NCBI GenBank assembly: GCA_027449685.1
Contig: DAIDLC010000004.1
Coordinates: 62,001 to 126,000, forward strand
Source of the DNA: Ferrovaceae bacterium
GTDB lineage: Bacteria; Pseudomonadota; Gammaproteobacteria; Burkholderiales; Ferrovaceae
Length of the DNA: 64,000 nt
Reading direction: 5' to 3'
Made by a program: the position numbers and the translations under genes. The notes below the pieces were generated by a model, which was given only the letters and a program-made list of their open reading frames with translations, was not told the DNA's origin and did not search any database. Positions 3,187-7,916 of the stretch are shown here, one piece after another (position 1 is the stretch's first letter; each line of letters begins with the position of its first letter).

Positions 3187-4536
3187 TCAAGTGGCCTGGA
3201 CCGCCAAGACCGGAGCAAAACCACCACCCGGGGTCCTGAAATTGGTGGTTTGCCCCTGATACAGGCGTGCGGCTACCAGCAGGATCTGCCCCCGATAGAC
3301 GTACAGCCTGAAATCGATTTTTCGGGTGGTCGTGCTTCCCTCCAGTGGGATGATGCGCTCACCCGGAGGAGAAAACTCCTGCGCCACATACTGGCCTTGC
3401 AGGATGTGGGACCACACACTCCGGGTCAGTTTGTCGCCACGATACACGGCCTTGCTGCCATGCCCCCCCGCGGGTTTGAAGAACAGGGTTTTGCGGGCTT
3501 CCCACAGCGCTGCGGCGTTTTCTGCCGACACCAGTGCGGTGGGCAGCACGGCCTTCAAGGCTTGGGTCTGCGTGGGGGAAAGCCCCCACTCTGCTAGCAG
3601 GGACTGCTGGGAGAGCAATGACAGGTTGCGCTTGTCGGCCAACAGGGCATGCAGATGCGGGTTGGGGGTGAGCACCACAGCCCCCTCCAGATAGGCGGCA
3701 CGCAGGGCTGCATGACGCGCTTGCTCGAGGGAAAAATCCACCAGCCGGTTGTACACCAGATCGATGGGCGCATCCTGGTAAAGAAGCCGTCCCCCGGCGT
3801 AGTGCAAGTCCTGGGCATCCACAATCAGGGTAGTGAAACCCTGGCGCTGCAATACTTTCCGGGCCAGGATGAATTCCGGATACAAATACTGCGCCTGGGG
3901 CTCGTCATCCACCAGGGCGATGCAGCGCGGGATTCCCGCGCGGCCCTGCAGGGCCCATTCCTGCCGAAACATGTCGCCCACAGCCCCCTCAAAATCCTGC
4001 CCGTTCCAGGGGTTGGTGTGCGCCTGGACCTCCGGGCAGCAGGCGCTTTGAGCCCGGGCCAGGAGGGCGTTGAGAAAGGCGCCACCGGCATTGGTGTTGA
4101 TTTCGATGAGTTTGGGGCCGGACGGTGTATGATGAAAATCGTAGCCCATGAACACGCCTGCAGGGCCAAAGTCTGGTTGCGCCGCTGCGCCCGCCCAGGC
4201 CAGCACCTGCCGTTGGTAGGCGGGAAGGCGAGTGGCTGCCTCGATGGCCAGTACGGTCTGGTGCATGTGCTCCAGGGCTTCGCGGGGCGCAAACACCGGG
4301 GTGTGGGCAAATAAATGCGGGTGTGATTGCAGCAGTTGCGTGCAGAACACCGGGTCGCCCACCGCCTGTTCCAGGGCAGAGCATAAAGCGCTCCGGTCCA
4401 GGGTTACACACCGGCACTCGCGGTTAAACCGTTGTGACAGATCGGTGGGTGGGGGGCCGGGGCAGACCGGGACGGAAGCGTTCAACAAGCAATCATACCG
4501 GCCGTATCGGGTGCCATCATGCCCAGAGCGCAACAA
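3187..4536 (-). CDS. ATP-grasp-like protein of unknown substrate
   Basis: Motifs GYDFHHTPSGPKLIEINTNAGG and FFKPAGGHGSKAVYRGDKL resemble glutathione-synthase/ATP-grasp folds; exact start uncertain. Confidence 0.65.
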   Translation of the reverse strand: MLRSGHDGTRYGRYDCLLNASVPVCPGPPPTDLSQRFNRECRCVTLDRSALCSALEQAVGDPVFCTQLLQSHPHLFAHTPVFAPREALEHMHQTVLAIEAATRLPAYQRQVLAWAGAAAQPDFGPAGVFMGYDFHHTPSGPKLIEINTNAGGAFLNALLARAQSACCPEVQAHTNPWNGQDFEGAVGDMFRQEWALQGRAGIPRCIALVDDEPQAQYLYPEFILARKVLQRQGFTTLIVDAQDLHYAGGRLLYQDAPIDLVYNRLVDFSLEQARHAALRAAYLEGAVVLTPNPHLHALLADKRNLSLLSQQSLLAEWGLSPTQTQALKAVLPTALVSAENAAALWEARKTLFFKPAGGHGSKAVYRGDKLTRSVWSHILQGQYVAQEFSPPGERIIPLEGSTTTRKIDFRLYVYRGQILLVAARLYQGQTTNFRTPGGGFAPVLAVQAT

Positions 4537-4629: not shown

Positions 4630-6066
4630 ATGACAGCGCATTCTACGCCCTCGATGGATTCCTGCCCACTGTTGACCACGCTGCAACGCCAGCGCCAGGA
4701 TTATTTGCTGACAGGGCCCCCGGGGGTGCAAGAGCGCATTGCGGCACTGCACTCATTGCAGCGCTTATTGCGCGAACACCAAAACGCCTTCCTCACGGCC
4801 GTCAGCCAGGACTTTGGCCACCGTTCCCGCCATGAAACCCTGCTGGGTGAAGTGTTCCTGATTCAGGAGTCCATCCGGCATGCCATCCGGCATTTACCCC
4901 AATGGATGCGCCCGCAACGGCGTCGGGTGCCGCTGCAATTGTGGCCCGCCAGGGCGCAACTCCGGTTTGAGCCCCTGGGTGTGGTGGGCATCATGGCGCC
5001 CTGGAATTACCCCCTCAGCCTGGCACTCATGCCGCTGGTGGCGGCTCTGGCCGCGGGCAACCGGGTCATGCTCAAACCCTCGGAATACACCCCGGCCTGC
5101 AGTGAATTATTGGCGCGCCTGTTGTCCACTGCCTTTGACCCCCGACAGGTGAGCGTGGTGACCGGAGATGCCCAGATTGGTGCCACTTTTGCGGCGCTGC
5201 CCTTCGACCACCTGTTTTTTACCGGGGGAACGGCCACCGGGCGTCTGATCATGCGCGCCGCCAGCGAGCACCTCGTACCCGTCACGCTGGAATTGGGCGG
5301 GAAATCTCCGGCACTTCTCGATGCACCTTGTTTGCTGGAGCAGGCCGTTCAACGGATTGCCCGCGGAAAATTGTTCAATGCCGGACAAACCTGCATTGCG
5401 CCCGATTATGTGCTGCTCCGCCCGGGTCAGGTGGAACCTTTTGTGGCGTTGTACCGCAAAGCGGTGGAGCGTCTGTACCCCAGTGTGGTAAACAATCCGG
5501 ATTACACCTCGGTAGTCAATGAGCGCCACTATGTGCGCCTGCAAGGGTTGGTGGACGATGCCAGGCGCCAGGGCGCGCGGGTGGTGGCAATCGATCCGCA
5601 GTCCGAACATCATCAAGCACCGGCGCAGCGCAAGTTCCTGCCCACCGTGCTGCTGGATGTGACCGATGACATGCAGGTGATGCAGGAAGAAATTTTCGGC
5701 CCCATTCTGCCCCTGAAGACCTATACGGACCTGGACCAGACACTGGCCTGGATCAACGCCCGTCCCAAACCGCTGGCGCTGTACTATTTTGGAACCGATC
5801 GAGGACGGCAGAATCGCGTCCTGGCACGCACCAGCGCAGGCGGGGTGAGCATCAACGATACGCTGCTGCATGCTCTGGTGGAGGACTTGCCCTTTGGGGG
5901 GATTGGTGCCAGCGGGATGGGGGCCTACCATGGTCACGACGGTTTCCTGACCTTCAGCCATCGCAAGCCGGTGGTATGGCAGGCCCGCTGGAGTGGGGCT
6001 GCCCTGGCCGAGCCGCCCTATGGCCAGTTGGTGGAGCGCCTCATGGCCCTGTTGATGGGGAAGTAG
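4630..6066 (+). CDS. calB: Aldehyde dehydrogenase, coniferyl-aldehyde-dehydrogenase-like
   Basis: ALDH motifs VTLELGGKSPALL, FNAGQTCIAPDYVL, EEIFGPILP; overall pattern of short (about 475 aa) coniferyl aldehyde dehydrogenases. Confidence 0.75.
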   Translation: MTAHSTPSMDSCPLLTTLQRQRQDYLLTGPPGVQERIAALHSLQRLLREHQNAFLTAVSQDFGHRSRHETLLGEVFLIQESIRHAIRHLPQWMRPQRRRVPLQLWPARAQLRFEPLGVVGIMAPWNYPLSLALMPLVAALAAGNRVMLKPSEYTPACSELLARLLSTAFDPRQVSVVTGDAQIGATFAALPFDHLFFTGGTATGRLIMRAASEHLVPVTLELGGKSPALLDAPCLLEQAVQRIARGKLFNAGQTCIAPDYVLLRPGQVEPFVALYRKAVERLYPSVVNNPDYTSVVNERHYVRLQGLVDDARRQGARVVAIDPQSEHHQAPAQRKFLPTVLLDVTDDMQVMQEEIFGPILPLKTYTDLDQTLAWINARPKPLALYYFGTDRGRQNRVLARTSAGGVSINDTLLHALVEDLPFGGIGASGMGAYHGHDGFLTFSHRKPVVWQARWSGAALAEPPYGQLVERLMALLMGK

Positions 6067-7603
6067 CCGGGCCGGTTGGCGGGAGATTGCCTCGGGATTT
6101 GATATAGTCGCCCAGGTCCTTGTCGGCACCTTGCACGTGATCCACCACCCAGTTCTTCAACAATTGGGAGGCCAGCATCTCGTTGGATTGACTCAGGGAT
6201 TCCCGGATGCGCGCCAGGGTGTTTTTCATGACTTCATGCCCATGCTGGTGCGCGACGCGATCGGGGTAGTCCAGCTTTTCCATGAGGGCATCTTCGGTGG
6301 CAAAATGCTGGTCCACACGCTGAAAGATTTCCTCAAAGATGGTCCAGACGCCGTCCCGATTTTCGCTTTTGAGTGAGCGATTCATTTCGTTGACCAGGGT
6401 AACCAGCTCCTGGTGTTCCCGGTCGATGTCGGTCACACCCACCAGATGACTGGCGTCCAGGGTAATCCAGTCGCTTTGGGCAGGGTGGATGACTGGCATG
6501 GCCTGGGAAAAGCTGAACTGGTGCTTGCCCTGCTTTTTACTTTCGTACATGGCGCTATCTGCCGCCGAGAGTAAGGTATCCATTTCAAAACCGTTGTCGG
6601 GATATAGACTGATGCCGATACTGGCGCTGACCTGGCAGGCGGGGTGGGCCGTGAGGGGAATGGGGGGCTGCAGGGACTGCAGGATCTTTTGGGCAATGGG
6701 AATGGCCTGCTCGGGGCGCTCCAGGTCGGGCAGGACCAGGGCAAACTCATCCCCCCCCAGGCGTGCCACGGTATCGCTTTCACGCAGGCAGCTCAACAAG
6801 CGGTGGGCCACTGTTTTGAGGACCACATCCCCGGCCTGGTGGCCGAGTTCATCATTGATGGCCTTGAACCCATCCAGGTCGATAAAGAAGAGCGCCACTT
6901 TCTTGTTGCTGCGCATGGCCTGAAGAATTTCCCGGGACAAGCGGTCAAAGAACAGGGAACGGTTGGGCAGGTTGGTTAGAGGGTCAAAATTGGCTTGACG
7001 CCAGATGAGCTCTTCGGCGCTTTTTTTGCGGGTGATGTCCACGAACTGGGCTACATAGCGCTGAATTTTTCCTGTGGTGTCGCGGGCCGCATTGATGGTG
7101 AGCCATTCCACATAGGGGGTGCCATCCTTGCGCCGGTTGATGATTTCTCCTTCCCAGTGGCCCATGGTGGTGAGGCTATGCCACAGGTTTTGGTAGAACG
7201 CCTGATTTTGCAGTCCCGAACTCAACAGGTTGGGTTTCCGTCCAATGGCTTCTGCCGCCTCAAAGCCGGTGATGGCGGTAAAGGCCGGATTGACGTCCAG
7301 AATCGTCCCGAGCGCATCGGTGATCAGCATGGCCTCGCTACTATGGTCAAAAACCAGCGCGGACAAGCGCAGGGACTCCTGGGTGTTGTGCAGGCGATTC
7401 AGGTTGAGCGTGTAGGGCCGATAGACATAAAAATAAAAAATGGGAAAGAGCAGGATGGTGAGCAACGTGGCATCCAGCAGCGTGGCTGCTCCGTCGGACA
7501 TGGGGGGCAGCCAGCCCAGCAAGACCATGGCCAGGGATTCGATGGCAAACACCGAGACTGACAGAAGGGTCAGGATCCTCCAGGGAGAGAGATTGGAATT
7601 CAC
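6041..7603 (-). CDS. Diguanylate cyclase: 2 TM, PAS, GGDEF, C-terminal hemerythrin domain
   Basis: PAS (ILDVNPAFTAITGFEAAEAIG), RLGGDEFALVL, hemerythrin-like DIDREHQELVTLVNEMN...FEEIFQRVDQHFATEDALMEKLDYP...HQHGHEVM. GTG start directly follows a poly-G tract. Confidence 0.9.
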   Translation of the reverse strand: MNSNLSPWRILTLLSVSVFAIESLAMVLLGWLPPMSDGAATLLDATLLTILLFPIFYFYVYRPYTLNLNRLHNTQESLRLSALVFDHSSEAMLITDALGTILDVNPAFTAITGFEAAEAIGRKPNLLSSGLQNQAFYQNLWHSLTTMGHWEGEIINRRKDGTPYVEWLTINAARDTTGKIQRYVAQFVDITRKKSAEELIWRQANFDPLTNLPNRSLFFDRLSREILQAMRSNKKVALFFIDLDGFKAINDELGHQAGDVVLKTVAHRLLSCLRESDTVARLGGDEFALVLPDLERPEQAIPIAQKILQSLQPPIPLTAHPACQVSASIGISLYPDNGFEMDTLLSAADSAMYESKKQGKHQFSFSQAMPVIHPAQSDWITLDASHLVGVTDIDREHQELVTLVNEMNRSLKSENRDGVWTIFEEIFQRVDQHFATEDALMEKLDYPDRVAHQHGHEVMKNTLARIRESLSQSNEMLASQLLKNWVVDHVQGADKDLGDYIKSRGNLPPTGPATSPSTGP

Positions 7604-7614
7604 CCCCCCCCCCC
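7603..7614. repeat. 12-nt homopolymer (C on +, G on -) adjoining the start codon of the diguanylate cyclase gene
   Basis: cacccccccccccc at 7601-7614. Confidence 0.95.
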
Positions 7615-7916
7615 AGTGAGATGGAGGATGGGCGGCGTAAGCGATTCAGTAGCCTGTTGTGCATGGGTTGAGGGACGGGACGGTCTTTGGTTTTTATAAT
7701 TTGTAATAAATATTCTCAAAACAATAACCGTCTGCAGTCTAGCATCGAATGGCTAAAGCCGTCCAATGCTGTCGTGTCATGTGGGGAGCGGATCAGAAAT
7801 TGGCACTAAACGCCTAATGTCGTCCCAATGCTGCGGTGCCAAACGCAGGGCAGATCAGGAACGAGCGCTGAGGGCCGTCAGAGCCGCAGGCCCGGGCAAG
7901 CGCGTTGCCAGACTCT

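Follow-up and report, generated by a model that had tools for sequence, protein, structure and literature searches.

In an uncultured genus that appears to belong to the Ferrovum family, a run of 12 G on the minus strand of the window (the whole stretch of 64,000 nucleotides that was analysed) is proposed to act as a simple-sequence contingency tract where translation of a hemerythrin diguanylate cyclase, probably controlled by Fur, begins; this reading is given a probability of roughly 0.45. The arrangement suggests that relatives of an iron oxidiser turn the enzyme on and off at random by means of the slippery tract; slippage within populations, use of an upstream ATG and an effect of tract length on enzyme output are what we infer from it. 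The position of the tract relative to two possible start codons, its presence in a second species of the genus and the make-up of the encoded enzyme bear on this reading, and three other explanations are weighed against it below.

The G-run and its reading frames

The 12-G run occupies positions 7603–7614 of the minus strand, where ATCTCACT is followed by the 12 G and then by TGAATTCC, and the letters around the tract read CCCATCCTCCATCTCACT-GGGGGGGGGGGG-TGAATTCCAATC. The earlier note described 12 G followed by a GTG start codon; the run of 12 is confirmed, but its twelfth G is itself the first base of the codon (7603–7601), so that 11 G precede the codon. Since TG follows directly on the last base of the tract, a GTG arises whatever the number of G. 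As had been claimed, an ATG upstream of the tract, at 7664, is one base out of the enzyme frame at 12 G, which is evident from the ORF list and the sequence, and frame arithmetic confirms that it would fuse in frame to the cyclase at 11 or 14 G. The distance from ATG to GTG is 61 nt, and therefore the two frames fuse only when the number of G (n) equals 2 mod 3 (11, 14 G). The assembled length of 12 G is out of frame from the ATG, which at this length opens an ORF of 105 aa (7347–7664, minus strand) present in the ORF list. The unusual placing of the tract at the enzyme start, also remarked on in the earlier note, is borne out: judged from the sequence, the tract separates the upstream ATG from the enzyme frame, at a point where gaining or losing G would alter the frame.

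Runs of this kind are uncommon in the source genome (G000, 1.86 Mb), which contains 22 G/C runs of at least 9, four of at least 10 and a single one of at least 11, namely the 12-G tract; the remaining runs of at least 9 lie mostly within long ORFs. In shuffles of the window, a 12-G match occurred with a mean of 0.08, at least one match being found in 6 of 100 shuffles. When the decay of run lengths is considered, about 0.3 runs of at least 12 are expected per genome, and therefore the mere existence of a 12-G run is weak evidence, being only mildly unusual for the genome; the strong evidence lies in the position of the tract together with the orthologous G-run of a sister species.

About 30 further runs of at least 11 are present in other metagenome-assembled genomes (MAGs) of the family, and their contexts are varied. 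For instance, G015 contig C31 (L167:2020-2032) carries a 13-G run inside a gene that looks fliM-like by eye (flagellar motor switch), with the frame open across the run, and G017 contig C67 (L134:1501-1511, minus strand) carries 11 G just ahead of an ORF with an exported-protein-like start (MTASQSLGFVAILTVTIAAMPIVQA). In G019, contigs C87 and C84 (L169:1-140, L234:1-140) hold a 12–17 G run directly after the lipobox cysteine of a lipoprotein-like gene; these contigs were considered as a length variant (12 vs 17 G) and rejected, since the two contig ends overlap and one of the runs is broken by an A (12 G, A, 5 G vs 17 G). Similarly, the 13-G tract of G003 contig C4 (L173:1406-2094) was rejected as a start-site tract, as about 640 bp separate it from a related 2-TM PAS sensor downstream, a protein with a similar N-terminal domain; even the nearest PAS ORF, a small one that precedes this sensor, is about 300 bp away from the tract.

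The encoded enzyme and its control region

Read from the GTG, the gene (6041–7603, minus strand) encodes a 520-aa 2TM-PAS-GGDEF-hemerythrin protein that matches Pfam PF00990, PF13426 and PF01814 and scores above the cut-off of TIGR02481, and the PAS-GGDEF-hemerythrin content named in the earlier note is upheld by these matches and by motif alignment. The two predicted TM helices are already included in this reading. The GGDEF signature and an RxxD I-site are present (RESDTVARLGGDEF; PF00990 E 2e-51), and the hemerythrin domain is C-terminal, where the motifs REHQ, HFATE, HQHGH and HVQGAD align with DcrH (2avk) and make up a complete set of di-iron ligands, that is, five His, one Glu and one Asp. 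The genus comparison comprised the source genome and two other genomes, G001 (LL7.bin71, JAJZHV; 1.2 Mb), which is the nearest relative, and G002. Third-position substitution bias relative to G001 indicates coding constraint, and since the coding part is under purifying selection, the gene is taken to be functional. The product is predicted to be a membrane-anchored hemerythrin diguanylate cyclase that senses iron and oxygen. A search of viral contigs for the protein gave no match. Elsewhere in the window, a 449-aa ORF (3187–4536, minus strand) had no Pfam or NCBIfam match, and parts of it look ATP-grasp-like by eye.

A possible promoter, TTGGAC-N19-TAGACT with TGC before the second hexamer, lies at 7736–7766 (minus strand) and can be aligned with TTGGAC...TGCTAGTAT of G001; since it was read by eye and was not listed by a consensus scan, in which the allowed spacing was 16–18 nt, it is treated here as putative. 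A degenerate Fur-box-like site (TGAGAATATTTATTA) with three mismatches is found at 7704–7718 (minus strand) and is aligned with an exact core in G001; it is the sole match that good in the 64-kb window, yet 0.69 such matches are expected by chance. The G001 leader contains GATAATCATTATC, which agrees exactly with the 6-1-6 Fur core, as no other site in the 1.2 Mb of that genome does. In addition, GAGAATGATTATC, one mismatch from the Fur core, precedes a cupredoxin-FTR1 iron permease pair in three of three genus members (L238:1500-2855, L240, L241), Pfam having been run on the G000 copies of the pair. The FTR1 iron permease is a typical kind of Fur target. For Fur-family regulators, the source genome has two PF01475 matches above the cut-off. 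From these sites, the cyclase gene is a candidate for control by Fur.

The sister species and competing explanations

A comparison of tract length with sister genomes, proposed earlier as a check, supports a tract that persists in G001 at a different length, with 12 G in the window against a nominal 23 G at the orthologous site, which is the only run of at least 11 in G001. Upstream, an S49 peptidase gene and then a DUF4156 gene stand in the same order on G001 contig C3; after the DUF4156 gene come a promoter region that can be aligned, an ATG, a 17-codon leader and then the 23 G. The leader from ATG to tract, which is the proposed start region (7615–7664, minus strand), is of nearly equal length in the two species, being 50 nt in the window and 52 nt in G001 (MHNRLLNRLRRPSSISL vs MGIRLYQRFIHQLSATS); the flanking intergenic DNA is otherwise diverged, with 302 nt separating the tract from the DUF4156 stop in the window, against 161 nt in G001. 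The window intergenic region (7615–7916, minus strand), about 140 nt longer than that of G001, appears to contain a pair of similar TTGG(G)AC...TTTAG segments, which may stem from a partial duplication.

Past the tract, G001 contig C3 continues into sequence of 71% G+C without homology to the cyclase gene, and the contig is likely chimeric right after the 23 G (L131:1-330), a join through poly-G in a public MAG; therefore 23 is an unreliable, nominal length, and the downstream frame is unseen on this contig. One frame of the 71% G+C segment looks NmrA-like by eye, and the frame tested had no Pfam match. The second half of the G001 gene (76% aa identity) begins at the edge of contig C116, with the same convergent downstream neighbour as in the window, and protein and DNA searches of the bin did not find the N-terminal half, aa 1–254. 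The locus was not found in G002, where it is either absent or missing from that incomplete bin, and when further tract-bearing orthologs were sought among 32 family genomes, only G001 had one; the locus is present in two species only among the family genomes compared. Finding a G-run at the same site in assemblies from two species speaks against coincidence, and also against an error private to one assembly. A frame switch initiated at the ATG is favoured because the ATG and leader are kept upstream of the tract and long pure G-runs are otherwise absent from both genomes.

A different account, which we regard as unlikely but serious, is that the GTG is the true start and the poly-G its ribosome-binding region, so that tract length would at most tune expression via spacing or RNA structure, without a frame switch. 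The poly-G upstream of the GTG pairs with the anti-Shine-Dalgarno sequence at -10.5 kcal/mol, while the window ATG shows no pairing (no Shine-Dalgarno), and it is this difference that makes a GTG start with a G-rich ribosome site a serious rival; the GTG and its G-rich Shine-Dalgarno are re-formed at every tract length, a start there already yields both TM helices, and a related sensor begins about 10 residues ahead of its first TM helix. However, the pairing lies only 3 nt from the GTG, 12–23 pure G's are not needed for a ribosome site, and the upstream ATG and leader are alignable between the two species. The predicted folds also speak against an effect of length through RNA structure, as they change little from 10 to 17 G; RNA folds computed at 8–17 G revealed no sharp length dependence past about 10 G.

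It is rather improbable that the run is prone to slippage but neutral, its length having drifted in the lineage without a regulatory role. Such drift would fit with a run of 12 being only mildly rare genome-wide and with the roughly 30 other long runs in family MAGs, but the tract is the sole such run in either genome, it occupies the same start-proximal site in both, and its length there changes the frame of the ATG. Finally, a sequencing or assembly artefact, for example poly-G calls of two-colour chemistry, is a very improbable source of the tract or of its length. In its favour, several of the long G-runs in family MAGs are found no more than about 130 nt from a contig end, and the G001 contig is chimeric at its tract. 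Against it, the window tract is embedded about 65 kb deep in a 135-kb contig, flanked by unique sequence on either side, and the assembly of the other species has a G-run at the same site.

The proposed switch and its relation to known systems

In the favoured reading, that of a contingency tract acting on the frame of the upstream ATG, translation would most likely start at this conserved ATG. Once slippage has brought the tract to n = 2 mod 3 (11, 14), the ATG frame would encode a short run of glycines and then the complete enzyme (ON). Any other length, the assembled 12 among them, would end this frame after about 105 aa and leave only the ever-present GTG for initiation (low or OFF). Iron, via Fur, would govern transcription, the redox state of the hemerythrin would govern cyclase activity, and the length of the tract would decide which cells are able to respond. 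The repeat is long, pure and exceptional for its genome, and it is kept in a relative at a different, nominal length. It is a more tentative proposal that homopolymer slippage acting as a switch on a Fur-controlled, redox-sensing diguanylate cyclase would give a heritable and reversible mix of attached and motile cells.

In the available portions of the literature on the subject, homopolymer contingency loci mostly concern surface structures of host-adapted bacteria (PMC8355987, PMC5084427). Like the poly-G/C loci of Neisseria and Campylobacter, the tract described here is a long pure G-run in a start region, one base out of frame, at which indels would join or break the upstream-ATG frame. 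Unlike those loci, as far as the available portions describe them, it belongs to a c-di-GMP enzyme of an environmental lineage, is present as one such tract per genome and is only proposed to vary. As for the enzyme, it has been reported that Bhr-DGC of Vibrio cholerae and Bhr-HD-GYP of Ferrovum sp. PN-J185 are hemerythrin-linked c-di-GMP enzymes, both active in the diferrous state, and the window protein resembles them in having a hemerythrin domain on a c-di-GMP enzyme; unlike Bhr-DGC, in which the hemerythrin is N-terminal, it has a C-terminal hemerythrin, two TM helices and a PAS domain, and the accessible part of the same source describes no contingency tract for either of the two known enzymes (PMC9388753).

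Where a 2025 review names phase-variable c-di-GMP enzymes, these are phosphodiesterases (PDEs) that switch by inversion or epigenetically (PMC11868660). The proposed stochastic switching of a c-di-GMP enzyme is shared with pdcB and pdcC of C. difficile and with the sfa-linked PDE of E. coli, in which invertible promoters or epigenetic control act on PDEs, unlike the homopolymer slippage and the cyclase considered here (PMC11868660). Meanwhile, in biostalactite populations of Ferrovum myxofaciens, no genes are hit by mobile elements as often as those of diguanylate cyclases, a pattern proposed to be adaptive microdiversification (PMC8899612). The on/off variation proposed for the window gene would similarly take place in populations, in a lineage related to this iron oxidiser; there, however, mobile elements disrupt the cyclase genes, and here a homopolymer tract would be responsible. 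Such variable inactivation of cyclases in a related iron oxidiser was counted in favour of the contingency reading (PMC8899612). No homopolymer-switched cyclase was found in the open-access papers covered, most of them judged by title and abstract.

If the reading is true, no earlier case of simple-sequence phase variation in a c-di-GMP synthase is known to us or was found in the open-access literature, to the extent that titles and abstracts represent it. In an environmental lineage related to iron oxidisers, bet-hedging would then be linked with biofilm decisions as well as with the sensing of iron and oxygen, and the tract would be a slippage counterpart to the mobile-element-driven loss of diguanylate cyclases in Ferrovum populations.
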